The position numbers were made by a program, and so were the translations under genes. The notes under the pieces are model-generated. The model was not told where the DNA came from. It did no database searches and worked only from the letters and a program-made list of their open reading frames with translations. Shown piece by piece: positions 1,759-15,558 of a stretch of 20,973 nucleotides of DNA. Source of the DNA: a virus; IMG/VR virus record IMGVR_UViG_3300017763_005647, positions 1-20,973 of that record; one strand, written 5' to 3'. Numbering within the stretch: position 1 is the stretch's first letter; the number at the start of each line of letters is the position of its first letter.

Positions 1759-3363
1759 ATGTATAAGTCTGATAGAATTGTAATTGTTGGTGGAGGAACT
1801 GCTGGATGGTTTTCTGCAACAACTTTAAAGAGATTTTTTCCAAATAAAGATATTACAGTAATTGAAAGTCCAAAAGTACCTATTGTTGGAGTTGGTGAAA
1901 GTACATTAGCATACTTTACCACTTGGTTGGCTTTGATGGGTATAGATGAGAAAGAGTTGTTCAAATATACTGATGCATCATATAAACTAAGCATTAAATT
2001 TACAGATTTCTTTAAAAAGGATTATGGTGCATATCACTATCCTTTTGGAAGACCAAACACTCCAGAAGAATCTTTTGCTGGTCTGGGTATTGATGCATGG
2101 TTACTTAAAAAATCATTTTATCCAGAAACACGTCCTGAAGATTATTGTAGGACAATTTTTCCTGCTATGCAACTAATTGAAAATAATAAAATTAGTAAAA
2201 ATGAAAATGGAGAGTTTGGTGATTACGAATTCAAACTAGCACATGCATATCATTTTGATGCAACTAGGTTTGGAATTTTCTTGAGAGATCATTATTGCAA
2301 ACCAAGCGGAATCAAACATATTGCAGCAGAAGTTAAAAAAGTAGTATCTGGTGCGGATGGTATTGAAGAAGTTGTATTGGACGATGGTACAATCATTACA
2401 GGAGATTTATATATTGATTGTACTGGTTGGAAGAGTATGCTTCTTGAGGGTGAAATGGGTGAAGAGTTTATCTCATACAACCATTTGATTCCAAACAATA
2501 AGGCATGGGCAACTAAACTTCCATATGTAGATAAAGAAAAAGAGTTAGAACCATACACCAATTCAACTGCTATTAATAATGGATGGGTGTGGAATATTCC
2601 TCTTTGGAGTAGAATTGGAACTGGATATGCTTATTCTGATAAGTACGTTGATAAAGAAGACGCTCTTGAAGAGTTTAAAAAGTACTTGGTATCAGATAAA
2701 ATGATAGTTCAAGATAAATCTAGAGTAGAGGATCTTGAATTTAAAGATATTTCTATGAAGATTGGTATTCATAGAAGAAACTGGGTAAAGAATGTAGTTG
2801 CAATTGGTTTATCTTCTGGATTTATTGAACCACTAGAAAGCACTGGATTGTTCACAGTTCATGAGTTCTTAATGAAACTAGTTACATCTCTTAATAGAGG
2901 AGATTACACCCAGTTTGATATTGATACCTACAATATTTCTGTTAGAGAAATGTTTGATGGTATGTGCAAATTTGTAGCATTGCATTACTCACTAAGTCAT
3001 AGAACTGACACTGAATACTGGAGGGATGTCACAAGAAGAGAATATATGGGAGATTTAGTTGATAATAGAAGTCCTGGTTCTGATATGTTCTCAGATCTAA
3101 TTCTTCGGAAAATGGTAACTCATAGTCACCAAGCAGATTCAGGAACACATTGCATATGTAATGGTATGAATTATAATGTTCTGACTATAGAGAATATGAT
3201 TAAAGCAGGTTATTATCATTACACTCCACATATAGATGAAGTAAGAAATACAATTGATCAGATGATTCCAATCTGGCAAGAAAATCAAGCAAAATGGAAA
3301 GAAGAGGCAGATAAATGCCCAACCCTATACCAATACTTGAAAGATAATTTCTACAATCAATGA
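1759..3363 (+). CDS. Flavin-dependent tryptophan-halogenase family protein
   Basis: 534 residues, the usual length of PrnA-type halogenases. These use FADH2, oxygen and halide to make hypohalous acid, which a lysine passes to an aromatic substrate. Seen here: the FAD-binding GGGTAGW at residues 11-17, Lys76 in the DASYKLSIKF segment at the place of PrnA Lys79, the family signature WVWNIP at 276-281 that blocks monooxygenase activity, and the FIEPLESTG segment at 355-363 carrying the acidic residues near the active site. The key residues look intact, so it is probably active. No flavin reductase is seen nearby; the host may supply reduced FAD. Such genes are known in T4-like cyanophages, but to my knowledge without a proven substrate. 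It reads against its neighbours and ends in an ATGA overlap with the epimerase gene. A weak ribosome site precedes the ATG. Confidence 0.93.
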   Translation: MYKSDRIVIVGGGTAGWFSATTLKRFFPNKDITVIESPKVPIVGVGESTLAYFTTWLALMGIDEKELFKYTDASYKLSIKFTDFFKKDYGAYHYPFGRPNTPEESFAGLGIDAWLLKKSFYPETRPEDYCRTIFPAMQLIENNKISKNENGEFGDYEFKLAHAYHFDATRFGIFLRDHYCKPSGIKHIAAEVKKVVSGADGIEEVVLDDGTIITGDLYIDCTGWKSMLLEGEMGEEFISYNHLIPNNKAWATKLPYVDKEKELEPYTNSTAINNGWVWNIPLWSRIGTGYAYSDKYVDKEDALEEFKKYLVSDKMIVQDKSRVEDLEFKDISMKIGIHRRNWVKNVVAIGLSSGFIEPLESTGLFTVHEFLMKLVTSLNRGDYTQFDIDTYNISVREMFDGMCKFVALHYSLSHRTDTEYWRDVTRREYMGDLVDNRSPGSDMFSDLILRKMVTHSHQADSGTHCICNGMNYNVLTIENMIKAGYYHYTPHIDEVRNTIDQMIPIWQENQAKWKEEADKCPTLYQYLKDNFYNQ

Positions 3364-4154
3364 TTATAATCACTGGATCATCTGGATTCATTGGTAATCA
3401 TTTTATCAAACATTTAGATGGGAAACAAAATCTACTATTAGTAGATCAGAAGGATGCTTGGAGATTATTCAATAAATTTGATCAATGGAATGATGTCACC
3501 TTAATATTGCATCAAGGTGCAATATCCTCAACGACAGAAAAAGATTTACAAAAACTTTGGCATTATAATGTAGCATTTTCTTGTGCTTTACTTAATAAAG
3601 CACTTGAATATGAAATACCAATTAAGTATGCATCATCCGCCTCAGTCTATGGTAATACACAGGGAGAAATAAATCCTTTAAACCAATACGCGATATCAAA
3701 ATTACAGGTTGATTATACTGTATTGGATAATCTTGATAAGTTTGAATTAGTTCAAGGATTTAGGTATTTCAATGTATATGGGGAAGGTGAAGAAAATAAA
3801 GGAGATCAAGCAAGTCCAGTAAGTAAATTCACACAACAATCGAGAGAAACTGGAAAGATAAGACTCTTTGATGGATCAGATAAATTTTTAAGAGATTTTA
3901 TTTGCGTTGATGATATAGTAGATATTGTATTGAACAATGATGCTGGTAGTGGAATTTATGATATAGGTACTGCAAATCCAATTTCCTTTCAAGAGGTTGC
4001 AGAATTAGTTGCAAAAAAAGAAGGGAGCGAGATTGAACTCATTCCCTTCCCAGATCATTTAAAAGGAAAATATCAGACTTACACTTGCGCTGATATGAAG
4101 TGGATTAAAAATTATAAATTCAAATCTATGAAAGAATATCTTAATCTCCCCTAA
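3360..4154 (+). CDS. hldD: ADP-L-glycero-D-manno-heptose 6-epimerase (HldD/RfaD-like)
   Basis: 264 residues, against about 310 in E. coli HldD. It is an extended short-chain dehydrogenase fold: NAD(P)-binding GSSGFIG at residues 6-12, HQGAISSTTE (HldD has HEGACSSTTE), ASSASVYG, catalytic Tyr110-x3-Lys114, then RYFNVYGEGEENKGD with Lys147 matching the HldD lysine in its HKGS motif, and IPFPDHLKGKYQTYT near the end, which is highly HldD-specific. It should convert ADP-D-glycero- to ADP-L-glycero-beta-D-manno-heptose, the last step of precursor synthesis. The missing ~45 residues are mainly in the N-terminal half, after the first strands. Its ATG overlaps the halogenase stop (ATGA at 3360-3363). 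Its 3' end overlaps the convergent cupin gene by 14 nt. A related NDP-sugar epimerase is the alternative. Confidence 0.85.
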   Translation: MIIITGSSGFIGNHFIKHLDGKQNLLLVDQKDAWRLFNKFDQWNDVTLILHQGAISSTTEKDLQKLWHYNVAFSCALLNKALEYEIPIKYASSASVYGNTQGEINPLNQYAISKLQVDYTVLDNLDKFELVQGFRYFNVYGEGEENKGDQASPVSKFTQQSRETGKIRLFDGSDKFLRDFICVDDIVDIVLNNDAGSGIYDIGTANPISFQEVAELVAKKEGSEIELIPFPDHLKGKYQTYTCADMKWIKNYKFKSMKEYLNLP

Positions 4155-4491
4155 TAATTCTATAACTATCTTCATCAAAATGTTGTGTAGAAAATTCAAA
4201 TAATTCTGTATCTTCTAAAGCTATCATTTGATGCCTAAGTCCTCTGTAAATGTGATGTGTGTCACCCTTACAGAGGACTATTTCTTTGGATTGGATTAAA
4301 TCATCATCATCCGAATATTTTAGAATGATTTTTCCAGATTGAACATAAAAAGTTTCATCTTTCAGTTTGTGATAATGCCATGAGCACTTCTTTCCCTCTT
4401 CAAAAAAGAGAAGTTTGCCGCAATACTCATCAGTATTTACAATCCATTTTTCATGCCCCCATCCCTTAGGAACGTATTTAATTTTATCCAT
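4141..4491 (-). CDS. Single-domain cupin protein
   Basis: 116 residues forming one cupin barrel. Motif 1 is perfect: G33-x5-H39-x-H41-x4-E46-x6-G53. Motif 2 is G76-x10-H87, with Tyr82 in place of the usual Pro. His39, His41, Glu46 and His87 are the expected metal ligands. The opening KGWGHEKWI resembles the C-terminal isomerase part of type II mannose-6-phosphate isomerase/GDP-mannose pyrophosphorylase. Given its place after the heptose genes, it may isomerise, epimerise or bind a sugar phosphate, but the substrate cannot be read from sequence. The start at ATG 4489-4491 is fixed by an excellent ribosome site at 4497-4504. It is the last gene of the sugar cluster and meets the epimerase gene tail to tail. 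Confidence 0.85.
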   Translation of the reverse strand: MDKIKYVPKGWGHEKWIVNTDEYCGKLLFFEEGKKCSWHYHKLKDETFYVQSGKIILKYSDDDDLIQSKEIVLCKGDTHHIYRGLRHQMIALEDTELFEFSTQHFDEDSYRIIRGD

Positions 4492-4496
4492 TACAT

Positions 4497-4504
4497 TCCT
4501 CCTT
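4497..4504 (-). promoter_or_regulatory. Strong ribosome binding site of the cupin gene
   Basis: The minus strand reads AAGGAGGA, 5 nt before the ATG at 4489-4491, in the 24-nt gap after the HAD gene. The distal gene of the cluster therefore has one of the strongest initiation signals in the window, suggesting it is translated independently of the overlapping genes upstream. Confidence 0.75.
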
Positions 4505-4515
4505 AAGAGTTTTCT

Positions 4516-4830
4516 TTATTTAAAGAAATCAATATCACTAATTCCTTTATCATCAATATAATAATCTCCTGTGGGTTTACCCATATAAAGATGATGATAC
4601 TTACAACCCCAATCTTCCAGTTGCTTTTTTGTTAATTTATGCCACTGAATAGTTGCTTTTGATGGTGTAGGATTTTCACTCATTCCTCTAGCAGTAAAAT
4701 ACCAAATTTCATGCCCCTCATCATATAATTTGTTTATCCCATCAATTCTATCTAGAAATGGAACTGCTTCTTCATACTTTCCATATGTATTACTACAAAT
4801 AGTTCCATCAATATCAACAACATATTTCAT
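4516..4830 (-). CDS. Small HAD-family phosphatase
   Basis: 104 residues, a minimal HAD fold without a large cap. Motif I is DIDGT (nucleophile Asp6, acid/base Asp8), motif II is FTARG with Thr46, and Lys85 followed by YYIDDK with Asp93-Asp94 gives motifs III and IV. All catalytic residues are present. HAD proteins of this kind (YFTARG...MGKPTGDYYIDD) are common in sugar and capsule clusters. GmhB, the heptose bisphosphate phosphatase, is a HAD enzyme of about 190 residues. This protein is much smaller, but it lies directly after the heptose kinase and could remove the 7-phosphate of heptose 1,7-bisphosphate. That is an inference from context. It overlaps the kinase gene by 17 nt. Confidence 0.85.
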   Translation of the reverse strand: MKYVVDIDGTICSNTYGKYEEAVPFLDRIDGINKLYDEGHEIWYFTARGMSENPTPSKATIQWHKLTKKQLEDWGCKYHHLYMGKPTGDYYIDDKGISDIDFFK

Positions 4831-5599
4831 TTACATCATCCTCATTAAGTACATAAGTTCCAAAATGTGTTACAGCAATTGCTGCTGCTTTATTTGCATA
4901 TGGAATAGCACAATCAATGCTACCAAGTAAAAGATAGAAATGCACCAAAGCTGCTAGGAACGTATCACCAGCACCTGCTACATCAAAGACTGGTACCTGA
5001 ATACCAGGAAAAGATTTACCATTATAAGTACAACCTTCAGAACCCTTAGTAATAATTAAATTTGGATAATCTCCTTCTAATTCTTGTGCTTCTCGATCAT
5101 TGATTTTTATATAGGATTGTTTGGGTAGTCTACTTTTTTTACTATCAATAAAGACAGGACCCTCAAACCAGTCCACCAGTTCTTGTATTTTTTCTTCTGA
5201 AAGAAACCCTTTATTATAATCGGAGATAACCATAACATCAAAATTTTCTTTAGGTAAGTCCCACACAAATTCTTCTGCTTCATCATTCTCATCCAACCTC
5301 ATAATTTGTTGGTTAGACTTAGAATCTACATATCGAGTCTTGGTGATATTTGCCTCATGAGTCATCATATAAACATCGTCCCCAAAGGACATCAGGTTCT
5401 CTCTGACGTTGTATGCCATACCTTTGGCACTTTCTACCCTATCATAAACCATGACTGGCACAGGTGCTTCTGGACTGATCCTAGTAATCTTACCATAGAC
5501 ATATCTGTCTTTACAGGTGTCACCGATAAGGAGTACCTTGAATTGTTTGGGTTGTAGAATAGTCTCCTTGTCGATCAAAAAACCGAACTGATTTTGCAT
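4814..5599 (-). CDS. D-glycero-beta-D-manno-heptose-7-phosphate kinase (HldE N-domain-like, PfkB family)
   Basis: 261 residues, shorter than the roughly 320 of the E. coli HldE kinase domain. It has the HldE hallmark GDTCKDRYVYGKITRISPEA (residues 26-45; HldE has GD..LDRY.YG..SRISPEAPVP), the segment AKGMAYNVRENLMSFG matching GGAANVA.N..SLG, and the PfkB anion-hole motif VAGAGDTF with catalytic Asp212. It should phosphorylate D-glycero-beta-D-manno-heptose 7-phosphate at C1 with ATP. Its ATG at 5597-5599 lies 80 nt inside the upstream nucleotidyltransferase gene; a TTG at residue 8 is a weaker alternative. In E. coli the two domains are one protein with the kinase first; here they are separate genes in reverse order. 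Its 5' half is visibly more GC-rich than its 3' half. Confidence 0.87.
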   Translation of the reverse strand: MQNQFGFLIDKETILQPKQFKVLLIGDTCKDRYVYGKITRISPEAPVPVMVYDRVESAKGMAYNVRENLMSFGDDVYMMTHEANITKTRYVDSKSNQQIMRLDENDEAEEFVWDLPKENFDVMVISDYNKGFLSEEKIQELVDWFEGPVFIDSKKSRLPKQSYIKINDREAQELEGDYPNLIITKGSEGCTYNGKSFPGIQVPVFDVAGAGDTFLAALVHFYLLLGSIDCAIPYANKAAAIAVTHFGTYVLNEDDVNEICC

Positions 5600-5918
5600 A
5601 GTGTGAACCTACTACTTCTTTTCCTTTCCAGTCAGAACCGACCACCATTGTATCAGGTTTGATCGATTCCAGCAACTCTTCTAGTTCTGTCTTGGTGTCA
5701 AATATATGAACAACATCAACATACTTAATGGAAGAGAGTATCAGCAATCTATCGGATTGTGAAAAAATAGGTCTTTCAAGACCCTTCATCTCTGCTACCT
5801 TCCTATCGGAATCGATAGCAACAATGAGATAGTCTCCGAAAGACTTAGCGTATTCCAGGAGTTTGATGTGTCCAGGATGAAGCACATCAAAACATCCATT
5901 TACAAAAGAGATTTTCAT
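5520..5918 (-). CDS. Heptose-1-phosphate nucleotidyltransferase (HldE C-domain-like)
   Basis: 132 residues, the expected length for a stand-alone HldE2 or TagD-type enzyme. It has the nucleotidyltransferase HxGH motif (HPGH, residues 14-17) in NGCFDVLHPGH, then AIDSDRKVAEMKGLERPI, close to the HldE pattern NSD...LKG..RP, then GSDWKGKEVVGS and a terminal YSTTQTI matching the STT..I motif. It should transfer AMP to heptose 1-phosphate, giving ADP-D-glycero-beta-D-manno-heptose. A CMP transferase such as glycerol-3-phosphate cytidylyltransferase is the alternative, but the KG..RP segment and the adjacent kinase favour the heptose role. It starts in an ATGA overlap with the upstream YkgJ gene (5915-5918). 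It has higher GC than its upstream neighbours. Confidence 0.87.
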   Translation of the reverse strand: MKISFVNGCFDVLHPGHIKLLEYAKSFGDYLIVAIDSDRKVAEMKGLERPIFSQSDRLLILSSIKYVDVVHIFDTKTELEELLESIKPDTMVVGSDWKGKEVVGSHYAKSVRFFDRQGDYSTTQTIQGTPYR

Positions 5919-6361
5919 GACTTAACATTAAAAAAGTCTAAAAATTCTTTAGATCCAAGATGATTCCATCCACTATCAACTTGATATATCAATGGAGTAT
6001 CAGTTTTAATACAAAAATTTATAATCCAAGAAAGAACTTTTGTATCATATTTTTGACCTGTTTCTATAACTTTTAATAGTTGATATTCTTTATTTGCCCC
6101 CCACCTCTCTACATTTACAATTGCATTAATTTTGTTTGGTTTCATCCATTGTGGAAGAACTCCTTGACTCCATGCACATTGATATCCTTTGCAAACTTCA
6201 GGTCTTTCCTGATGTATTGTGCAATTTTTTTCTTCACACAAGAAGAAGCATGGTTTTCCTGGTTTAACATCATGTCCATGAACGTCACTTATTGATAACC
6301 ATTTGCAACATTCATTGCATTCACCACATTCCCTGAAGTCAGTTTGAAAATCCTTTTCCAT
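5915..6361 (-). CDS. YkgJ-like cysteine-cluster protein
   Basis: 148 residues. The N-terminal half carries the YkgJ/UPF0153 cysteine pattern: Cys12, Cys15, Cys18-Cys19, Cys38, Cys42, Cys47, Cys57 and Cys62, including C-x2-C-x2-CC, RPEVC and CAW. These proteins are predicted to hold zinc or an iron-sulphur cluster. The biochemical role is unknown, but members often lie beside glycosyltransferase or protein-modification genes. The C-terminal half (from about residue 70) is a plain alpha/beta domain with no recognisable motif. It overlaps the heptosyltransferase-like gene by 23 nt upstream and the nucleotidyltransferase by ATGA downstream, so it is part of the same coupled group. Confidence 0.82.
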   Translation of the reverse strand: MEKDFQTDFRECGECNECCKWLSISDVHGHDVKPGKPCFFLCEEKNCTIHQERPEVCKGYQCAWSQGVLPQWMKPNKINAIVNVERWGANKEYQLLKVIETGQKYDTKVLSWIINFCIKTDTPLIYQVDSGWNHLGSKEFLDFFNVKS

Positions 6362-7328
6362 TTTTTTTCAGAGCATTAGATTTCTTCATTTGTTTCTTTG
6401 GATCTATTTCAGATCCTATAATTGAAAAAATTTCTTCAAGTTGTTTATCATCAAACTTCATAGCACCATCATTCTTCCTATCACTCAATTCAGAATCAAC
6501 ACCTCCTATTCTAATTGGATTGTATGAATTTTTAACATTATTATTTCTATAGAAATTGAAATAATCTGGATAGGAAACATTTTTTTCAAAGGTAGATCCC
6601 ATAATAATTAAACCTGGTTTATCAAATGCTCTTGCAATATGTTGTCCCACACTATCACATCCAATAAAATAATCACATTCATTTATCAATGCCATGTACA
6701 TTCTTAAATTTCCTCCAGGAGGATTGAATGAATATGTATCTTTTGAAAACTGGTATATATCTGGTGAACCAAAATAAATTACAGTTACATGCTCAGAAAG
6801 ATGAGAAACTAGTTTTACATAGTCTTCTGGATACATACTCCTTCCAGAAGAATCTGTAAAGCAATCATTTTCAACCATTGCTGAACTACCATATGGTTGA
6901 AAAACAACTAATTTCTCTTTTTTGGTTTGATCTGTAATATTTTTGAGATTCGCTTTCATCTTGCGAGACTCATCATAACTTATATAGAGATTTGGTTTAT
7001 CCAAATCACTGTGATCTGTGGTATTATTGATTTCTTCATCGAAAGCTTCTGCCAAAGATAATTCTTGATTATAATATCCCCAACGATGATAAGGTTCTGG
7101 AGATACAAGAATATTATCTTTCACAAATAATTCAAATGAACCTTTTTGATTTATATCAAATGTTCTATCTTGAAGCACTGGATGACTCCAATAAAGATCA
7201 CACCACCCATGAATCAAAACTTTGAAATCATCATCTGGATTTAATCTTGCATACTTTTCCAGTGCTGGAATTGCTGTTACAACTCTTCCAGCTCCACCAC
7301 TAAGCAAAAATGTAGTATTCCTTTTCAT
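6339..7328 (-). CDS. GT-B glycosyltransferase, GT9/heptosyltransferase-like
   Basis: About 329 residues, the length of WaaC/WaaF-type ADP-heptose:LPS heptosyltransferases. The N-terminus has the expected GGAGRVVTAIPALEKYARLN start of the acceptor domain. The middle carries the strand LVVFQPYGSS that opens the donor domain. The motif IGCDSVGQHIARAFDKPGLI matches the GT9 pattern (G-x-D-S-G-x-x-H-x-A-x-x-x-x-x-P). It would transfer a heptose or similar sugar from a nucleotide donor, in the cytoplasm or at the inner membrane face. I use ATG 7326-7328 because it makes an ATGA overlap with the preceding gene; a GTG at 7338-7340 is possible. The link to the heptose enzymes downstream makes ADP-heptose a natural donor, though this is inferred. 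Confidence 0.82.
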   Translation of the reverse strand: MKRNTTFLLSGGAGRVVTAIPALEKYARLNPDDDFKVLIHGWCDLYWSHPVLQDRTFDINQKGSFELFVKDNILVSPEPYHRWGYYNQELSLAEAFDEEINNTTDHSDLDKPNLYISYDESRKMKANLKNITDQTKKEKLVVFQPYGSSAMVENDCFTDSSGRSMYPEDYVKLVSHLSEHVTVIYFGSPDIYQFSKDTYSFNPPGGNLRMYMALINECDYFIGCDSVGQHIARAFDKPGLIIMGSTFEKNVSYPDYFNFYRNNNVKNSYNPIRIGGVDSELSDRKNDGAMKFDDKQLEEIFSIIGSEIDPKKQMKKSNALKKNGKGFSN

Positions 7329-7963
7329 AATGTATTCCACTGATTAATAACGTTTTTAGCAATTTTTAGAGATAAATCTCTGTCTCCCGTACCAGTATGT
7401 ATAAGGTAATCACGATGCCATTTTTCCCAAGTAATACCCGTATATCTTAATCCATATTTTGCAAGATTATGAGATAAAGAGTATTCATCTATATCACCTT
7501 TCCTCACAATAGTGAGTTTTTCTCCATTCTCTGGTGAAATTGTTAATGGTTCCCATAAACAATGAGTTGATTTATAAGATACTACAGCATTTGTAACAAC
7601 ACCAATGTTTCTACCATCACGCATAAAATAATCACGATTGTAGTCATTAATTGCAAATTTATCTGATGCTGTATAGTTATCATTAAAAGCAACATGATGT
7701 TCTGGTATGATATCATGAACATCGGGGAATTGTGGATGAATCAAGATATCAGCATCAACCAAAAAATTTAGATCTGCATCTTTTCCATCTTCCCATACCT
7801 GAAGTTTTTCATAATTAATGTGCCATTCTGGGTATTTTCTTTCAGTGATTAGATTAAATTCTGCACCAATACGATCAGCATATGCCTTTATCGTTGGGTA
7901 TGTATAATACCACAATTCAGGAAAAAAATCATTAATGTAAACGCAATGAACTATTCTTTTCAT
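7325..7963 (-). CDS. GT-A-type glycosyltransferase
   Basis: 212 residues. It begins with a strand typical of nucleotide-sugar binding (KRIVHCVYIND) and has a D-x-D metal motif, Asp70-Ala71-Asp72, in FLVDADILIHP. The stretch YEKLQVWED just before it fits GT8/GT77-like enzymes, where a tyrosine or lysine precedes the DxD strand. The C-terminal part (ITWEKWHRDYLIHTGTGDRD) has histidines that could close the active site. Donor and acceptor cannot be told. It is the first gene of the tightly overlapped group running from 7963 down to 4141, separated by 20 nt from the orphan upstream. No good ribosome site precedes the ATG. Confidence 0.75.
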   Translation of the reverse strand: MKRIVHCVYINDFFPELWYYTYPTIKAYADRIGAEFNLITERKYPEWHINYEKLQVWEDGKDADLNFLVDADILIHPQFPDVHDIIPEHHVAFNDNYTASDKFAINDYNRDYFMRDGRNIGVVTNAVVSYKSTHCLWEPLTISPENGEKLTIVRKGDIDEYSLSHNLAKYGLRYTGITWEKWHRDYLIHTGTGDRDLSLKIAKNVINQWNTL

Positions 7964-8462: not shown

Positions 8463-9155
8463 TTAACCGTCCCACTCTTTATGTATAGTAGATTTAAACT
8501 CACCATCTTCAAAATAAGGATCATCAAATGCATAAAGATCCATTTGAATAATTGGAAATAAATCAGCTCTTATGTACATATCTAGAGATTCATAGATACC
8601 ATTTTTAATTACATATGAAACTAGATTTTTAGCAACAGCAGGATCTATAGAATATGCATGTGCTCTACATAAAGATCTAACATGTCCACTATATGCTGTT
8701 GCATGTGGGGGAATTGCAAATACTTCTTGCCCTTCTAATGCCTGCTCTCTTGATCCCAGATATACTATTGTAGCATATGAATTATGTAAATTATATGGTT
8801 TAACCATAATAGCATCATGCTCTAAAATTGCAATAGGTTTATCTATCTCAATACAATGACACCATAAACTAAAATGAGAAATGAAACAACCTACTTGTGT
8901 TGCAGATAGATCAAGATTATATAATTTTAACCAGCTCAAATAATCTTTATCTTTATGCATTTCTGGAACAATAATATTTCCAGAATTGCCATCAAATGCA
9001 TCCCAAATTTTGTACGATCTACCAACAGATTTGCATGAGTTTACACATCTGTTGGTAAATTTTTGGGATATTTCATTATCTTTTAGAGATATAATGTAAG
9101 CATCACTTATATTCCTATCATATTGATAGTGAAGCGTTTTATTAATATCAAACAT
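8463..9155 (-). CDS. Glycosyltransferase family 25-like protein
   Basis: 230 residues, the usual size of GT25 LPS/LOS glycosyltransferases. It has the family's opening strand AYIISLKDNE (residues 19-28), then YKIWDAFDG, then LSATQVGCFISHFSLWCHCIE, which is the GT25 signature (GxxGCxxSHxxxW). The metal motif follows in ILEHDAIM (Glu112-His113-Asp114); the family usually has EDDA here, so a histidine replaces the first aspartate. The enzyme should transfer a hexose from UDP-sugar to a lipo-oligosaccharide or, as in collagen galactosyltransferases of the same family, to hydroxylysine on a protein. Protein glycosylation is therefore possible, which is of interest beside a hydroxylase and repeat proteins. 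Confidence 0.82.
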   Translation of the reverse strand: MFDINKTLHYQYDRNISDAYIISLKDNEISQKFTNRCVNSCKSVGRSYKIWDAFDGNSGNIIVPEMHKDKDYLSWLKLYNLDLSATQVGCFISHFSLWCHCIEIDKPIAILEHDAIMVKPYNLHNSYATIVYLGSREQALEGQEVFAIPPHATAYSGHVRSLCRAHAYSIDPAVAKNLVSYVIKNGIYESLDMYIRADLFPIIQMDLYAFDDPYFEDGEFKSTIHKEWDG

Positions 9156-9176: not shown

Positions 9177-10472
9177 TCAACTAAAACATCTAATTACGCC
9201 AGTGGCATGTCTGCCACTACCTCCACATACCCACCCACAATCAGGTCCTACTTGAACTGGACTGCACATTCTACTCTTACAACAAATACCTAGTTGACCA
9301 TAATCATTGTGACCCCACATCCACATTGCACAATCCTGATCAAATGCTAGACCACTATATCCAGCAAAACCATTCTGTCCCAGTTCTATCCATGTTTTAC
9401 TGCTGAAAATTTGAACTGGTGAAGATCTGGGGGCACTACTAGTATCTCCAAGTTCACAATGGGCATTGTATCCCCATCCCCACAGGGTGTTATCATTTTT
9501 TCTTGCATGAGTACCATGTGACATTGCACTAATTTCTATCCAGTTAGATCCTGGAATTTGAACAGGACACATTATATCTCCAGACCCCTGATTAATTCCA
9601 TTGGAACCATGCGAACCATGTCCCCATGACCATAATGTACCATCAGTTTTTAATCCATACATCCCATTACATCTAGTTTCAATACCAGTCCAATTAGTTC
9701 CTGGAATTTGTGTAGGAGAACTGAAGTGCGGACAGCTGCATGTAGTACAGGAACAACATGGTTGATAACATCCAGTATTGGTATTCATACAATTTGGACT
9801 GCAACAAGTTCCAGGATACTCACAACAAATACAACAAAGCCCTAATTGACCATGACTATTATGACCCCAAACCCACAAAGTTCCATCACATTTAATTCCA
9901 CCTGCAGAGTGACGTGTAGCTGAAACACATTTCCATGTATTTCCTCCAAGTTGAACTGGGCAGGCGTACCTACACCTACAACATCCAACACCTTCATCCC
10001 AGCAGCAACAACAACTAGTTTCAGTTAAACCTAACTGACCCCAGTTGTTATGACCCCACGCCCATAATGTACCATCCGTTTTCATTCCGAAAGACGTACA
10101 GTCTGAAGCAGACATGAAACACCAGTTGTTTCCTGGAAGTTGATTTGGTGATGACTGGGAGGTGCAACCACAATCACCTAATTGCGAGTGGTTGTTATAT
10201 CCCCATGCCCAACCAGTCCCATCTTGCTTTGTTGCAAGCATATGATGATTACCTATGGCAATATTATTCCAATTAGTACCTGGTACTTGATTTGGAGATG
10301 ATCTATAATTTCGTGTAGAATCAGCAAGTTCTCCATGACTATTATATCCCCACATCCAAAGTTGTTTATCACCAGGGTCTAGTGCTTTATACACACCAAT
10401 ACCACTTCGTGCTAAATCATAACTTTCTCCCAGTGTTAATGGTTTTTTCTTTATATTTTCGGATACTGCCAT
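9177..10472 (-). CDS. RCC1-repeat seven-bladed propeller protein A, cysteine-rich
   Basis: 431 residues. After an N-terminal segment (KKPLTLGESYDLARSG) come seven RCC1 repeats of the form W-x-WGxNxxGQLG...SSPxQxPGxxW...KxDGTLW, starting near residue 38 and continuing to the end, enough for one closed propeller. I count about 37 cysteines (over 8 percent). Most are in the outer loop between GQLG and the SSPVQ strand. In blade 3 the loop holds SCCCCW and GCCRCRYAC; in blade 4 it grows to about 40 residues with some 15 cysteines. Eukaryotic RCC1 binds chromatin, but phage and bacterial versions are more plausibly adhesins. No signal peptide. A late-promoter motif at 10501-10508 precedes it. Probable receptor-binding or virion surface protein; function not proven. 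Confidence 0.85.
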   Translation of the reverse strand: MAVSENIKKKPLTLGESYDLARSGIGVYKALDPGDKQLWMWGYNSHGELADSTRNYRSSPNQVPGTNWNNIAIGNHHMLATKQDGTGWAWGYNNHSQLGDCGCTSQSSPNQLPGNNWCFMSASDCTSFGMKTDGTLWAWGHNNWGQLGLTETSCCCCWDEGVGCCRCRYACPVQLGGNTWKCVSATRHSAGGIKCDGTLWVWGHNSHGQLGLCCICCEYPGTCCSPNCMNTNTGCYQPCCSCTTCSCPHFSSPTQIPGTNWTGIETRCNGMYGLKTDGTLWSWGHGSHGSNGINQGSGDIMCPVQIPGSNWIEISAMSHGTHARKNDNTLWGWGYNAHCELGDTSSAPRSSPVQIFSSKTWIELGQNGFAGYSGLAFDQDCAMWMWGHNDYGQLGICCKSRMCSPVQVGPDCGWVCGGSGRHATGVIRCFS

Positions 10473-10500: not shown

Positions 10501-10508
10501 TATTTATT
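10501..10508 (-). promoter_or_regulatory. T4-type late promoter motif (AATAAATA)
   Basis: The minus strand reads AATAAATA, 7 of 8 matches to the T4 late consensus TATAAATA. It overlaps the TAA stop codon (10504-10506) of the TPR-glycosyltransferase. Transcription would start near 10495, giving a leader of about 23 nt before propeller A. The motif is AT-only, so chance occurrence is possible in this AT-rich genome. Confidence 0.45.
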
Positions 10509-11712
10509 CGAGTTCATCATCTAAAAACTCATATAACTGATTAATAGTTTCTGACCAATCATTATATGCACTCTGCTTGATAACTTTAACAGAATTATAC
10601 CATTCCAAATCTTCACATGACCAAATAAAGTATGGAACAAATGGAGGTAAAACAATTGTGGGTAAATTCATAGCACCTGCCAAATGAGCTGTACTTGTAC
10701 AACTTGTAATAAGCAAATCTAAACCACTAAAAATTGAATAAGTATCTTGCCAATCATTTATTAACTCAGAACAATTGGGAAAACTATCATCCTCTTCATC
10801 AATTTGAAGAGAAAATAATTGACCATATTTTTTTAAATCATAAAAATATTCTTTTGATATTGTTCTGAATTGATCGTGCTCAAATTCTGGATTTCCTTTC
10901 CACCGAATTCCAATTTTTCTTTTTCCATTTGCTAGCATATCCATTTGTCTTACAATATAAGGTTCGCAAATACTGTCAATATATGGAAATGTAACTTTAT
11001 CTTTTGGAGAACTTACATCAATAAAATTTGGTAGCGACATTGCTGGAACATATGCATCATACACAATATTTTCAATACAGTGTTTCGGATATGCATTATA
11101 TCCTGCATTAACTAAAAGTCTAAGTAATGACATATCACATACTACGATTAAATCATTACATTTAGTTTTTAAATAATTTGCCCATCTTAAAAAAATAAGT
11201 TCATCTCCTATACCACCCTCAAGACATAACATAAGAGTATTTACATGTTCACCATCCCATCTTTTAGATTCGTCAAGAGACCCTACTTCAATTAACGAGT
11301 ATTCATTTCCCCAAACTCTACAATCTTTTCCAAATGCAAGATGATGAAATCCCTTTTTAAAATTACCGTTTCTTAAATAATGCCAACCCTTATTAAACCT
11401 TATTCTTGAATCATTGCTATCATCTAATGATTCATATATTTTTAATGCGTCATCAAAATTCCCATATGCATTTTTATATAATGCATAATCTAACAATACA
11501 TCAGAATTTTTGTCCTCAACCTCTTCCATTAATTGTAAAGCCTTTTCTACTTTACTTGCATAATAATAACATTTAGCTAGATTTGGTTTGAGATAATTTG
11601 GAAAATTATCAATTGTTTCTAAACATTCTATAGCTTTATCAAATTCTTTATTTTCAAAATACTCATGAGCTTGATTATTTACATCTGATAGATGACGATC
11701 AGTTTCTTTCAT
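10504..11712 (-). CDS. TPR protein with C-terminal GT-B glycosyltransferase domain
   Basis: About 402 residues. The first 130 or so form about four TPR-like helix pairs (for example AHEYFENKEFDKAIECLETI and YGNFDDALKIYESL). The rest is a GT-B fold of the kind found in bacterial TPR-glycosyltransferases: CLEGGIGDELIFLRWANYL (usually EQGLGD...RY), GIRWKGNPEFEHDQFRTI, and the donor-site motif TSCTSTAHLAGAMNLPTIV, which resembles GT9 and O-GlcNAc-transferase-like proteins. TPR domains in such enzymes bind protein acceptors, so a fibre protein is a reasonable target. I chose ATG 11710-11712 with AAAGGA just upstream; ATG 11724 or TTG 11733 are alternatives. It overlaps the hydroxylase gene by 14 nt. 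Confidence 0.83.
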   Translation of the reverse strand: MKETDRHLSDVNNQAHEYFENKEFDKAIECLETIDNFPNYLKPNLAKCYYYASKVEKALQLMEEVEDKNSDVLLDYALYKNAYGNFDDALKIYESLDDSNDSRIRFNKGWHYLRNGNFKKGFHHLAFGKDCRVWGNEYSLIEVGSLDESKRWDGEHVNTLMLCLEGGIGDELIFLRWANYLKTKCNDLIVVCDMSLLRLLVNAGYNAYPKHCIENIVYDAYVPAMSLPNFIDVSSPKDKVTFPYIDSICEPYIVRQMDMLANGKRKIGIRWKGNPEFEHDQFRTISKEYFYDLKKYGQLFSLQIDEEDDSFPNCSELINDWQDTYSIFSGLDLLITSCTSTAHLAGAMNLPTIVLPPFVPYFIWSCEDLEWYNSVKVIKQSAYNDWSETINQLYEFLDDELE

Positions 11713-12277
11713 AAATCCTTTCATCTGTTTCAATCCAAGTTACTAATGTATATCTTGCACCCTTTGTCACAGGGTGTACTTGATGGGTAAATTCATAATA
11801 TGAAGGAAATGCTATGATCATTCCCTTTTTTGGTTTTATTGTAATACCAAAGAAATTAAATTCTAATTCACCTCCTTCATAGTCATCATTTAAATACGCT
11901 AAAATTGATACATCTCTATCAGTTTTTCGAACAGGTTTTCCATCAACCCAATCATCAGCATCATTGTGTATATCATATTTTCCACCAACTGGATATTCTA
12001 AAAGTTGTGGTGCTTCTACTTTTACAACATTCTTCTTATAAATTTTACGATACTCTTGCTCATACAAATTTGTAACAGATGTTTCTATTTTTTTTGCTAC
12101 ATCTTGTGGTATAGGAAACCAATTCGTGTTTCTATACTCCATATTAACATCTGTAGTCTCATCATCATAACCAACTAAAGCTGGAGATGATTCTCCAACT
12201 ATCAGTTGTTTTGTTAATTCTATAAATGGTTCTGGCAATGCATCAGGAATGATCTTAATATAATCGTAGTAATTCAT
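11699..12277 (-). CDS. 2OG-Fe(II) oxygenase, prolyl-4-hydroxylase-like
   Basis: About 192 residues from ATG 12275-12277 (a TTG at 12293-12295 is the alternative). The double-stranded beta-helix motifs are present: His104-x-Asp106 in YDIHND, distal His165 in FTHQVHPVTKG, and Arg175 ten residues later to bind 2-oxoglutarate. The segment VSILAYLNDDYEGGELEF is typical of P4H-type enzymes. It should hydroxylate a protein proline (or a related side chain) using oxygen and 2-oxoglutarate. Such genes are common in T4-like cyanophages, usually without a known substrate. Here it is directly coupled to a TPR-glycosyltransferase and flanked by propeller genes, so sequential hydroxylation and glycosylation of a structural protein is possible. 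Confidence 0.88.
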   Translation of the reverse strand: MNYYDYIKIIPDALPEPFIELTKQLIVGESSPALVGYDDETTDVNMEYRNTNWFPIPQDVAKKIETSVTNLYEQEYRKIYKKNVVKVEAPQLLEYPVGGKYDIHNDADDWVDGKPVRKTDRDVSILAYLNDDYEGGELEFNFFGITIKPKKGMIIAFPSYYEFTHQVHPVTKGARYTLVTWIETDERIYERN

Positions 12278-12324: not shown

Positions 12325-13566
12325 TTATTGAGTGATAACACAACGACAATCATCATCTACAAGTCTCCGTCCACATGTAAAGAGCCAAGTTCCCTCTCTA
12401 CCACCTAACACATATTTCCAGTTACATCCTGGTAATTGAATTGGTGAGGAGAAATCCATTCCGCTACAATGAAATCTTTGGTTTGTAGTATTATGTCCCC
12501 ATCCCCACGCTGTACCATCATTTCTAATTGCAACAACATGACGACAACCAGAATCAACATATATCCAACACCCTGGAACTTGAACTGGTGAGGATTTGTT
12601 AGACGTACAATTTATACCTAACCGTCCATGATTATTATGTCCCCATGCCCAGAGAGTATTATCATTTTTAATTCCATACATCGCTTGTTGACCTTGACCA
12701 CCATCTGTTACATGTATCCAGGTTCCTGGAAGTGTTATGGGGGAGGAATAATTACTAGTATTATTATTACCTAATTGTCCATGGTTATTATGTCCCCAAA
12801 CCCAGTGACTTCCGTCAGTTTTCTTTCCAACTACTGGATATCCACCTTTAATGAAACACCAAGATCCACCAACTTGTACTGGTGAGGAATAGTAAGTAGT
12901 GTTATGAACTCCCAATTCTCCATGAGCACTATACCCAAATGAGTAAGCACAGTTACCAGCTCTAATTGCAAAATTTTGATGATAACCACCGTGAGCTTTT
13001 ATCCAATTAGTTTGAGTGCCAACTTGCAGCTTACAACTGTAAGATTGGTTTGTGTATGTACATCCTGGATGCACACACAATTGACAACCCGAAGAACACC
13101 ATAATCCTGCTTGACCATGGTTTCCATACCCCCATGTCCATAGTGTGCCATCACATTTAACTCCAATTCCGGATTGATGACCTAATGCTACATCGCACCA
13201 ATCCCCTGGAATTTGTGATGGTGATGATCTATGCCAACCACCTCTCTGCTCCATCCCAAGTTTATTATGACTATTTCCACCCCATGCCCAGAATGTTCCA
13301 TCAGATTTTTTTACAACTATTGCACAAACAGAACTATTCTTACCAGATCGATGTCGCCAGTCATTACCCTCTGCAGATGGTTGTGGATAACCTACATTAT
13401 CAGGGCATGTAGAACACCTACCAAATTGTCCATGATTACCTTTACCCATGCGATACATCTGCTCTTCATCAGAGTCTGTTGCACCATAACTCCAACAATC
13501 AGCAGCTAATCTATGATAAGCATCATCTAGAGTAAAAGTTCCTTTTTTTTGCTTAGAAACTGGCAT
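12325..13566 (-). CDS. RCC1-repeat seven-bladed propeller protein B
   Basis: 413 residues with the same plan as propeller A: an N-terminal segment KQKKGTFTLDDAYHRLAAD, then seven RCC1 repeats. Repeats 5 and 6 are the most regular (WVWGHNNHGQLG, WAWGHNNHGRLG). Repeat 3 has a longer loop with five cysteines (LWCSSGCQLCVHPGC...SYSC). I count 21 cysteines, about 5 percent. Repeat 1 and repeat 7 are degenerate, as expected where a propeller closes. After the last blade a short tail (RRLVDDDCRCVITQ) remains. A ribosome site (AAGG) lies upstream of ATG 13564-13566. Likely a virion surface or receptor-binding protein. It shares a 39-bp identical segment with propeller C. Confidence 0.85.
   Translation of the reverse strand: MPVSKQKKGTFTLDDAYHRLAADCWSYGATDSDEEQMYRMGKGNHGQFGRCSTCPDNVGYPQPSAEGNDWRHRSGKNSSVCAIVVKKSDGTFWAWGGNSHNKLGMEQRGGWHRSSPSQIPGDWCDVALGHQSGIGVKCDGTLWTWGYGNHGQAGLWCSSGCQLCVHPGCTYTNQSYSCKLQVGTQTNWIKAHGGYHQNFAIRAGNCAYSFGYSAHGELGVHNTTYYSSPVQVGGSWCFIKGGYPVVGKKTDGSHWVWGHNNHGQLGNNNTSNYSSPITLPGTWIHVTDGGQGQQAMYGIKNDNTLWAWGHNNHGRLGINCTSNKSSPVQVPGCWIYVDSGCRHVVAIRNDGTAWGWGHNTTNQRFHCSGMDFSSPIQLPGCNWKYVLGGREGTWLFTCGRRLVDDDCRCVITQ
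12766..12804 (-). repeat. 39-bp identical repeat, copy in propeller B
   Basis: Identical base for base to 15100-15138. It encodes WVWGHNNHGQLGN in blade 5 of protein B and in blade 3 of protein C. The two genes are otherwise clearly diverged, so the perfect match suggests recent recombination or gene conversion between propeller genes. Confidence 0.85.
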
Positions 13567-13586: not shown

Positions 13587-14336
13587 TTAAGTGCTAGCTA
13601 CACCGACTGGATTTTTATCTAAGTGGTCCATCCACCTATATCTAAGTTCTAGGTTTGGTGAATAATATCTAACCACTTCGGGAGTTCCTACATCACCGGG
13701 AGGTATACCATTTTCAGCGGTTGACACTCTACTTTCAATTAAGGTTTCTTCTTTTTCTTCCCATACTTGATGAGATGTCCAAGGATCATCTTGATCTAGA
13801 GTAAACGATTTAACTCTATCTGACAATTTTCCTCTGAGACCAGATATACTACTATCAATATCTCTAAATTCACCATACTTTCTAATAATTTTTTCACAAA
13901 GTTGTGCAACAGTAACTCCTCTTTTTTCTGCTTCTTTTGTTAAAGCAGAAGAAGCAACACCAGTGTCAGTAAATGTAACTGCTTCATTGTACTTTTGAAC
14001 TCCTGCAGTAGTTGCAGTTTCATGATAAGAAGAAAGTTGTGTATCTCTTAAAATCTTTTCTTCTTCATATAAGACTTCAATCGTATCTTTTTTTAGAAAT
14101 TCAATTTTTTGTGTTAATTCTGCAGTATATTCTTCTAATGTCAATTCATATATGTTATTATTTGGATCTGCAACAAAATCATCGGATGCATGACCATAAT
14201 ACCAATTACATTCAAAATCAACACAAAGATTTGTCAATCCAGGGATATCAGGAATACGTGCTCCTGCACTTGTTGCCTGTAACAGTGTGGAAACACCGGT
14301 TGTATCATCAACTGGATAAAACTTTACGTACTTCAT
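13587..14336 (-). CDS. Orphan structural-type protein between two propeller genes
   Basis: 249 residues, not recognised. It starts with a beta-rich domain (MKYVKFYPVDDTTGVS; NLCVDFECNWYYGHASDDF) to about residue 65. A long charged helical region follows, likely coiled coil, from about residue 68 to 100 (LTLEEYTAELTQKIEFLKKDTIEVLYEEE), then mixed alpha/beta. The end (RYYSPNLELRYRWMDHLDKNPVGVAST) is aromatic. There is no signal peptide or enzyme motif. Its place between propellers B and C, and its own late-promoter motif plus AAAGGAA ribosome site, suggest a fibre-assembly chaperone or an adaptor that joins the propellers to the tail. That is inference from context only. Confidence 0.7.
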   Translation of the reverse strand: MKYVKFYPVDDTTGVSTLLQATSAGARIPDIPGLTNLCVDFECNWYYGHASDDFVADPNNNIYELTLEEYTAELTQKIEFLKKDTIEVLYEEEKILRDTQLSSYHETATTAGVQKYNEAVTFTDTGVASSALTKEAEKRGVTVAQLCEKIIRKYGEFRDIDSSISGLRGKLSDRVKSFTLDQDDPWTSHQVWEEKEETLIESRVSTAENGIPPGDVGTPEVVRYYSPNLELRYRWMDHLDKNPVGVAST

Positions 14337-14373: not shown

Positions 14374-15558
14374 TTAACAGCATACTATTGCATAGCTACT
14401 ATCACCAAATGCACTTATTTCAGTCCAACAAGTTAGTGCTCCAATGATATAAGGTGATGATCTAGGCGTAATACAACCTACACCCATTTGCCCATCAGCA
14501 TTATTTCCATGACCCCATATTCTATTCTCACAATCTTTAAGCAGTGTATGGTTTGCACCAGTAGCAACTGATACCCAACGTCTAGTTCCAGGAATTATAG
14601 TTGGAGAAGATCTGTGGCAACAGCAGTTTACGTGGTTACCCAATTGACCAAGACGGTTAGAACCCCAACCATATGCATCACACTCATTATTAATAGCCAT
14701 TGAATGCTCTCTTCCAGCACTTATATCAACCCAGTTAAATCCCTGGATTTGTACTGGTGATGATCTATGAGTTGTTGATCCTGAATCACGACATGCTCCA
14801 AGTTGTCCGAATGTATTACTTCCCCATGACCAAAGAGTTCCATCTCTCTTTGTTGCAAGAACATGTTCTCCACCACTATCAAAAGCATACCAATTGTTTC
14901 CTGGAATTTGTACTGGTGATGATCTATCAATTATATTATTTCGACCCAATTGTCCGTAACAATTAATACCCCAAGCCCACATTTGCCCATTGCAGACTTT
15001 TAAAGCATAAGAACTTTGATGCCCTGCGGTTACACAATCCCAATTACATGCTGTACCAACCTGAATTGGGGTAGATTTATCATCCTTAAGAGGATCTTGA
15101 TTACCTAATTGTCCATGGTTATTATGTCCCCAAACCCACAAAGTTCCATCGGTTTTAACTCCCAATGTATGATATCCACCAGCTGCAACTCCTTTCCAAC
15201 ACCCTGGAACTTGAACTGGTGAACACCTAGGAGTTGCTGTATCATCTCCCAATTGTCCATGATTATTTTTACCCCATGTCCATAAAGTGGAATCAGATTT
15301 GATTGCTGCAGCATGAAAATCTCCTCCAGCAATTCTCACCCACTGACTAGATGGTATTTGTACTGGAGAAGATCTTCTTATAGTAGTACCATCGCCAACT
15401 TGTCCGTCACTATTTTGACCCCAACCATACAAGCAACCTGGAACATCTTGAAGATATTCGTTTCCCCATGTGCCAGTACATAACTGACCCATGGCATCTT
15501 CCAGACTCCAAGAACCTTTATCTTGATATGATTTTAAACAATCATTTCTGATATCCAT
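14374..15558 (-). CDS. RCC1-repeat seven-bladed propeller protein C
   Basis: 394 residues, the most regular of the three. The N-terminal segment YQDKGSWSLEDAMGQL matches those of A and B. Seven repeats follow, each close to 50 residues, for example WTWGKNNHGQLGDDT...RCSPVQVPGCW...KTDGTLW. I count 19 cysteines (4.8 percent), including NCCCHRSSP in blade 6 and a terminal Cys-Cys. The loop before SSPVQ differs in every blade while the frame is fixed. Start ATG 15556-15558 behind a G-run ribosome site. It sits directly downstream of the fibre genes, which supports a virion role. Bacterial proteins of this type are annotated as alpha-tubulin suppressor-like, a label that says nothing about function here. 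Confidence 0.87.
   Translation of the reverse strand: MDIRNDCLKSYQDKGSWSLEDAMGQLCTGTWGNEYLQDVPGCLYGWGQNSDGQVGDGTTIRRSSPVQIPSSQWVRIAGGDFHAAAIKSDSTLWTWGKNNHGQLGDDTATPRCSPVQVPGCWKGVAAGGYHTLGVKTDGTLWVWGHNNHGQLGNQDPLKDDKSTPIQVGTACNWDCVTAGHQSSYALKVCNGQMWAWGINCYGQLGRNNIIDRSSPVQIPGNNWYAFDSGGEHVLATKRDGTLWSWGSNTFGQLGACRDSGSTTHRSSPVQIQGFNWVDISAGREHSMAINNECDAYGWGSNRLGQLGNHVNCCCHRSSPTIIPGTRRWVSVATGANHTLLKDCENRIWGHGNNADGQMGVGCITPRSSPYIIGALTCWTEISAFGDSSYAIVCC
15100..15138 (-). repeat. 39-bp identical repeat, copy in propeller C
   Basis: The partner of 12766-12804, about 2.3 kb away and in the same orientation. Recombination between the copies would swap blades between proteins B and C and delete the gene between them if it occurred within one molecule. 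Confidence 0.85.

Follow-up and report, generated by a model that had tools for sequence, protein, structure and literature searches.

A phage locus with overlapping genes for a prolyl-hydroxylase-like oxygenase and a TPR-glycosyltransferase that may modify the phage's own RCC1 propellers

Introduction

Prolyl 4-hydroxylases (P4Hs), such as vCPH of PBCV-1 (5c5t), PPHD of Pseudomonas putida (4iw3), Cr-P4H-1 (3gze) and PHD2, share a double-stranded beta-helix and an HxD...H...R signature, and X-Pro-Gly is the usual target of the collagen P4Hs. The lysyl hydroxylase (LH) and glycosyltransferase (GT) systems of collagen, represented by LH3/PLOD3, COLGALT1 and the mimivirus proteins L230 and R699, follow a logic of hydroxylation and glycosylation. 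Chains in which tetratricopeptide repeats (TPRs) precede a GT-B domain include the GT41 enzymes OGT and SPINDLY as well as FlmG of Caulobacter, a soluble enzyme that is described as modifying a filament protein of the cell surface and as binding flagellin through its TPR part (PMC7591256). Here we examine the marine phage record IMGVR_UViG_3300017763_005647 of IMG/VR over its whole length of 20,973 bp (the window; records of this kind are often fragments), in which the overlapping genes for a P4H-like oxygenase and a TPR-containing glycosyltransferase (TPR-GT) lie among genes for RCC1 propellers.

The locus holds known kinds of enzyme in a new setting. Its oxygenase is like the P4Hs in fold (Z about 18-20) and signature, and differs from them in its low identity (19-25%), in belonging to a tailed phage and in lying beside propeller and TPR-GT genes; its substrate is putative. 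The TPR-GT shares with FlmG a TPR N-terminus and a GT-B C-terminus, whereas FlmG requires pseudaminic acid, and we know of no hydroxylase partner for it. Compared with GT41 enzymes, the TPR-GT has the same order of TPRs and GT-B domain in one chain, but its TPR arm is short, its whole-chain superposition is poor and it has no Pfam GT41 match. It is closer in GT fold (Z 14.8-16.5) to TibC, an autotransporter heptosyltransferase, and to the GT9 enzymes WaaC and WaaF, and an ADP-heptose donor is plausible from the Hld-like genes of the window; TibC, however, has its own N-terminal part in place of the TPR arm, and the TPR-GT has no Pfam GT9 match. With respect to the collagen systems, the window has a P4H-type rather than an LH-type oxygenase, a separate GT25 enzyme that has no match in the PDB, and propellers rather than collagen, while homologues of the collagen enzymes are found fused in other phages beside collagen-like fibres.

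Oxygenases dependent on 2-oxoglutarate (2OG) were reported in 2010 from 14 of 16 cyanophage genomes, with a proposed action on 2OG levels (PMC3037559), and in one account the 2OG oxygenases of phages are given roles in repairing or modifying DNA (PMC11288001). A passage in a paper on collagen of Escherichia coli prophages says that bacteria and viruses lack the required prolyl hydroxylases (PMC3368898). Among open-licence PMC articles, judged by title and the start of the abstract, we found no description of a phage lysyl hydroxylase-glycosyltransferase or of propeller hydroxylation.

Results

The oxygenase gene (11699-12277, minus strand, ATG at 12277, 192 aa) encodes a P4H-like 2OG-Fe(II) oxygenase, an assignment that is supported by both sequence and fold. 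The protein matches PF13640 with an E value of 3.9e-17 (63.4 bits against a curated cut-off of 27), and the residues that a sequence-only reading of the window had called intact, the iron triad H104, D106 and H165 and the 2OG-binding R175, do not vary across the 16 rows of the alignment. Its AlphaFold model has a predicted local distance difference test score (pLDDT) of 89.6, and its structural matches include vCPH of PBCV-1, PPHD, PiuC, the Bacillus anthracis P4H, an algal P4H and PHD2. When aligned with VIA-align, the model is closest to the PPHD-EF-Tu complex (4iw3; Z 19.9, 172 residues, 2.5 Å), followed by PHD2 (Z 19.5) and the algal P4H (Z 18.7), with a Trichoplax PHD also among the top rows. 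The oxygenase is also matched by PHROGs 274 and 2297, both named DNA endonuclease, and a match of these to a 2OG oxygenase suggests mixed or wrong names in the PHROG library.

The TPR-GT gene (10504-11733, minus strand, 409 aa) overlaps the oxygenase gene by 35 nt if its TTG start is used, and by 26 or 14 nt if translation begins at the alternative ATGs at 11724 or 11712. The two proposed substrates, both RCC1 propellers encoded on the minus strand, lie directly upstream of the oxygenase (12325-13566; PF00415 E 7.8e-25; Pro-Gly after 4 of 6 S/C/T-P-x-x-[VIL] sites) and directly downstream of the TPR-GT (9177-10472; PF00415 E 4.1e-29; Pro-Gly at 4 of 7 sites; Cys-rich loops), and a third propeller is encoded at 14374-15558, minus strand (PF00415 E 4.5e-66; Pro-Gly at 3 of 7 sites). 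The earlier observation of a P4H-like gene overlapping a TPR-GT-B gene with propeller genes on either side is thereby confirmed by Pfam, alignment and fold. The three window propellers contain 37 (9177-10472, 431 aa), 21 (12325-13566) and 19 (14374-15558) cysteines, compared with 0-2 in those of the relative L013.

The best evidence that the oxygenase acts on propellers is a co-variation between its gene and an X-Pro-Gly motif of the RCC1 blades, which suggests such a substrate and which we treat as a strong lead rather than proof. The motif was scored by regular expression as the two residues that follow S/T-P-x-x-[VIL], a pattern that leaves unscored 24 of the 198 unique blades at loci with P4H and 32 of the 216 at loci without it. 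X-Pro-Gly was present in 144 of the 174 scored blades where P4H is encoded and in 0 of 184 where it is not. A second count across 41 chosen loci, contigs and isolates gave Pro-Gly in 259/306 scored blades in 13 sources with P4H, two of which (L264 and L301) are not independent, having been picked up by the motif itself, and in 0/153 in 18 TPR-GT loci that have no P4H. In a contig of a lineage left without P4H after a loss (L017) the count was 1/8, or 2/13 when counted more loosely, and each of the nine other sources, including isolates of other lineages, offered 0-1 scored blades. No such Pro-Gly was seen on a looser inspection of 21 blades from 5 loci. The association was also approached blind from the opposite direction, with a DNA pattern for PVQIPGT followed by a tally by hand of contigs bearing such RCC1 genes; among the matches listed, P4H was encoded on all 11 contigs of at least 40 kb, two of them new (about 6 distinct viruses), and on 9 of 12 contigs of 20-40 kb, in one case with an inner stop.

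In the TPR-GT, Pfam matches are to TPR models, and the GT-B part is visible by fold only. The AlphaFold2 model (pLDDT 92.6) retrieves SPINDLY and OGT as its top Foldseek matches, with a root-mean-square deviation of 11-17 in the OGT and SPINDLY rows that marks the whole-chain superposition as poor. The GT domain (residues ~160-409) is nearest to GT9 folds over 223-236 residues (3tov, Z 16.5; WaaF 1psw, 15.6; WaaC 2h1f, 14.8; TibC 4rap, 14.8), and the catalytic part can be placed in the GT9 fold. Membership of GT41 or GT9 was considered and rejected on Pfam and, for GT9, on hhalign; since sequence libraries name only its TPRs, we call the protein GT9/GT41-like and assign it to neither family. 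A flagellin link for bacterial TPR-GTs was likewise set aside: among relatives in genome_contigs (80 of 99 kept, including at least two that look like phage contigs), flagellins occur in 15 of 15 genomes searched, but no flagellin-like start was found by regular expression within 4 kb in the 80 loci.

The genomic setting of the TPR-GT was surveyed in 85 loci, made up of 80 of its 318 IMG/VR relatives, the window and four phage records; near-copies are numerous among them (L013, L014, L015, L026 and L054). Immediately upstream, the TPR-GT has RCC1 in 41 loci, a gene of the fibre cluster in 17, the 2OG-like gene 2OGx in 14, P4H in 8, another gene in 3 and a contig edge in 2, and in 80/85 it adjoins RCC1 or fibre-cluster genes directly or via P4H or 2OGx. 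It follows RCC1 or fibre genes directly in 58 of the 85, all without P4H; L006, counted as lacking P4H, ends at a contig edge where P4H would lie. P4H is present in 22 loci, with an RCC1 or fibre-cluster gene directly upstream in 21 and a contig edge in one, and is followed by the TPR-GT in 7 and by 2OGx and then the TPR-GT in 15; seven LH-like second copies were recorded in the same tally. The recurring order is RCC1 - c8 - RCC1 - P4H - (2OGx) - TPR-GT - ... - RCC1 - ... - GT25, which is also found in the single-cell virus AG-345-E08. Further pairs of P4H and TPR-GT occur in L086, L264, L279, L301, two large contigs, L439 and L440, and an overlap of the two genes is seen in L440 as well as in the window clade. 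L439 and L440, which carry RCC1-P4H-TPR-GT, are filed under bacterial metagenome-assembled genomes, one as 'Chlamydiae'; they read as phage DNA and so are probably mis-binned. In a control of 80 loci found by the oxygenase alone, among the matches listed, only L086 (the one close relative) has an RCC1-like open reading frame (ORF) or TPR-GT, and an RCC1-like ORF was seen in 0 of the 79 others, so that the occurrence of P4H beside TPR-GT and RCC1 in the relatives is not a chance arrangement.

In a TPR-GT tree of 37 rows, the 16 rows with P4H form one clade together with L016 (100/99), at the end of a long branch (1.11), and L016 is nested within it (100/98, 96/91). The P4H label requires 2 changes on this tree against 12.2 in shuffles, and its history reads as one gain and one nested loss. 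P4H is gone from L016 and L017, which retain TPR-GT and GT25. A joint loss of P4H and RCC1 in these two was considered; it is true locally, but whole-contig searches find RCC1 elsewhere in both.

Two phages were rejected as further examples of the pair. In MW202512 (L005) the gene overlapping the TPR-GT is annotated 'endonuclease' and, judged by eye, encodes an enzyme of the HNH type rather than an oxygenase, and in BUCT-ZZ01 the TPR-GT has a C-terminal extension that may be methyltransferase-like, not an oxygenase, with no PF13640 match in the genome. In S-SRM01 the TPR-GT gene overlaps a 2OG gene of another oxygenase family (PF13759) beside RCC1, and the single blade scored there lacks X-Pro-Gly. 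Many TPR-GT islands hold further 2OG oxygenases among their sugar genes. The AG-345-E08 island (L002:12723-23588) has five ORFs with 2OG-oxygenase Pfam matches above cut-off and two more that are 2OG-like by eye or DUF6445, near RCC1, sulfotransferase, GT25 and Hld-like genes.

The window encodes a GT25-family glycosyltransferase at 8463-9155, minus strand (PF01755 E 6.1e-15, 56.1 bits against a cut-off of 24), as the sequence-only reading had said. The collagen link that it drew from this family is another matter: the window GT25 has no PDB match at E <= 0.1, and so none to the solved collagen galactosyltransferases, which leaves the family assignment standing and gives no evidence for collagen chemistry in the window phage. 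Further along the minus strand are a GT9-like, heptosyltransferase-like gene with a weak match (6339-7340; PF01075 E 2.3e-4, 21 bits, cut-off 22; phrog_8954) and genes like the two halves of HldE, an adenylyltransferase resembling its C-terminal part (5520-5918; TIGR02199 E 2.6e-36, 124.6 bits, curated cut-off 181.5) and a heptose-7-phosphate kinase resembling its N-terminal part (4814-5599; TIGR02198 E 1.7e-39, 135.8 bits, cut-off 345), in one run with a HAD phosphatase-like gene (4516-4830; TIGR01689 E 5.6e-7, below cut-off). An HldD-like ADP-heptose 6-epimerase is encoded on the plus strand (3360-4154; TIGR02197 E 3.9e-63, 213.5 bits, cut-off 274.6; 1eq2 E 4.2e-44). HldE kinase, HldE adenylyltransferase and HldD are the best matches of their respective genes, all under the NCBIfam equivalog cut-offs. 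Taken with a cupin gene, the segments 3360-6361 and 6339-7340 look like an ADP-heptose-like route in a phage, and Hld/rfaE-like genes are present in 20 of the 85 TPR-GT loci.

A more direct counterpart of the collagen enzymes emerged through PHROG 61, whose opposite ends are matched by the window oxygenase and the window GT25 and which led to fused proteins in other phages. The Synechococcus phages S-CAM9 and S-8S55 and the Roseobacter phage CRP-6 each encode a single protein with GT25 (PF01755), GT_PLOD (PF25342; E 4.5e-48 to 4.5e-28) and a C-terminal 2OG domain that falls under the Pfam cut-off yet matches solved lysyl hydroxylases; proteins of S-PRM1, also a Synechococcus phage, and of AG-345-L05 align with these over their full length. 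The ORFs, from cyanophages and one Roseobacter phage, lie at L166:7621-9486, L167:7672-9513, L169:7669-9513, L170:5747-7516 and L168:1835-3763, with relatives at loci L359-L438. Their PDB matches include LH3, COLGALT1 and two mimivirus proteins, R699 and the lysyl hydroxylase 6ax6. By our reading of the alignment, the fused proteins keep the iron ligands and have an invariant Lys at the position of the lysyl-hydroxylase domain where Arg is the usual 2OG-binding residue.

The fibres encoded upstream of the fused gene in four isolates contain 55-99 Gly-X-Y triplets (PF01391 E 2.9e-46 in CRP-6). For the IMG/VR relatives of the fused proteins (80 of 391 kept), runs of at least 10 Gly-X-Y triplets occur in 49/80 loci, and Lys occupies the Y position in 32% of 4,542 triplets (a few minus-strand runs included). 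Where at least 5 kb of upstream sequence is available, 35 of 39 loci, several of them near-copies, have a collagen-like run upstream, in which 14-77% of the Y residues are Lys. Such runs occur in 11/80 TPR-GT loci, where Lys falls outside the eight most frequent residues at Y (the eighth accounts for 1.9%), and in 3/80 of the 2OG control loci (Lys in 13% of 38 triplets). Stand-alone relatives of the lysyl-hydroxylase domain lie between c11 and RCC1 in L013 and L020, the L013 copy matching 6ax6 with E 1.1e-10. A protein that joins COLGALT-like, PLOD-GT and lysyl-hydroxylase domains beside Gly-X-Lys fibres makes hydroxylation and glycosylation of a phage's own fibres a real genomic pattern, and the logic of collagen looks literal in the phages that carry the fused enzyme.

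In transcription order, the minus strand of the window runs from fibre-like genes through RCC1 (14374-15558), a conserved gene (13587-14336; cluster c8, at the same position in relatives, 20 loci) and RCC1 (12325-13566) to the oxygenase, the TPR-GT, RCC1 (9177-10472) and GT25, followed by two unnamed genes, the GT9-like gene, a CxxCxxCC protein and the split HldE-like, HAD and cupin genes. The plus strand, opposite to the adhesin genes, carries, besides the HldD-like epimerase, a tryptophan-halogenase-family flavoprotein (1759-3363; PF04820 E 4.2e-103).

Discussion

Our findings point, as the best reading and one that we consider marginally probable, to a hydroxylase and a glycosyltransferase that act on the phage's own propellers. 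For the substrate, the sites, the sugar donor and the purpose, we propose the following from sequences, folds, gene order and the co-variation of X-Pro-Gly with the oxygenase. The oxygenase would hydroxylate the proline of the X-Pro-Gly turns found repeatedly in blades of the adjacent RCC1 propellers, proteins that we infer from gene position to be virion adhesins; the co-variation is an indirect pointer to such peptidyl-proline hydroxylation. The TPR-GT would dock on the same RCC1 proteins through its TPR arm and transfer a sugar, most likely a heptose, in view of its GT9-like fold and the Hld-like genes with which the phage could make ADP-heptose. The sugar may go to hydroxyl side chains, for which we favour Ser/Thr given the analogy to FlmG, OGT and SPINDLY, and the two modifications of one substrate may alter or stabilize the receptor-binding surface. 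The interpretation offered by the sequence-only reading is thus partly supported. Modification of the phage's own fibres is favored by the presence of P4H beside the propellers throughout the clade, by X-Pro-Gly tracking P4H and by the analogy with the fused collagen-type enzymes, and the part that lacks support is a relay in which both enzymes act on the same residue.

Several observations weigh against this proposal. SSPVQxPG segments, which were thought to occur in every propeller blade, were overstated: Pro-Gly follows at 11/20 of the S/C/T-P-x-x-[VIL] sites in the three window propellers, and one contig with P4H has it at only 11/22 sites. Contig G015, 31 kb from an unrelated phage, encodes blades with IPG but no P4H, and two more contigs of 20-40 kb have X-Pro-Gly RCC1 blades without P4H, all three being fragments. 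Only one gain and one loss underlie the co-variation, such that common descent can explain much of the pattern. As for the enzymes, the closest fold match of the oxygenase is PPHD bound to EF-Tu, a different substrate. Pfam models (E <= 0.1) give no glycosyltransferase match for the TPR-GT, neither GT41 nor GT9 (PF01075), other sequence libraries likewise name only its TPRs, and its hhalign probability against phage GT9-like proteins is 2.6, which is not significant. GmhA was not recognised among the scanned ORFs of the window, a 21-kb fragment.

The position of the TPR-GT outside the P4H clade bears most directly on the strict relay that the sequence-only reading had put forward, in which the oxygenase makes a propeller hydroxyproline and the TPR-GT or GT25 glycosylates that same hydroxyl, much as happens in collagen or in the extensins of plants. 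The overlap of the genes in the window clade and L440 would fit this, as would the long branch that leads to the P4H clade of TPR-GTs, which a change of acceptor might give, and other phages do combine Lys hydroxylation with two GT domains in one chain. The 58 loci in which the TPR-GT directly follows RCC1 or fibre genes nevertheless lack P4H, their scored blades lack X-Pro-Gly, and L016/L017 keep both TPR-GT and GT25 after losing P4H, which argues that the acceptor of the TPR-GT is not hydroxyproline in general. For this pair the relay is therefore unsupported and we consider it unlikely, two modifications of one substrate being likelier.

A target outside the virion would be of a different kind. 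Hydroxylation of a host protein such as EF-Tu, favouring phage growth, with the adhesin neighbourhood being incidental, is suggested by the superposition on the EF-Tu-bound P4H of Pseudomonas; the matches to PHD2 and the algal P4H (Z 18.7-19.5) are nearly equal, however, and the RCC1 neighbourhood is near invariable in the clade and is not found near other phage 2OG genes (among the matches listed), in addition to the co-variation of X-Pro-Gly in RCC1. We regard this as improbable, and equally so an oxygenase that acts on a small molecule or sugar of the same glycan pathway or merely draws down 2OG. The latter would suit the additional 2OG oxygenases in the sugar gene islands and the proposal that cyanophage 2OG oxygenases modulate 2OG levels (Sullivan et al. 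2010, PMC3037559), but fold and sequence point first to protein prolyl hydroxylases, and the link of RCC1 with X-Pro-Gly would be left unexplained.

Modification of the phage's own propellers, our preferred reading, leads to a broader and more tentative idea, which we think possible though doubtful: marine phages may mature their own adhesins by hydroxylation and glycosylation in two parallel versions, one in which a P4H and a TPR heptosyltransferase act on RCC1 propellers and one in which a single COLGALT-PLOD-lysyl-hydroxylase protein makes glycosylated hydroxylysine on Gly-X-Lys collagen fibres. In its boldest form the propeller sugar, too, would sit on hydroxyproline. 2OG oxygenases are common yet poorly explained in marine phages, and gene order, a target motif that co-varies with the oxygenase, and fused homologues whose substrates match together provide a concrete candidate substrate, the phage's own adhesins. 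If this is true, sequence-based or recombinant studies miss hydroxylations and sugars on the receptor-binding proteins of ocean phages, and phages would be a source of compact enzymes that modify collagen with a single chain.

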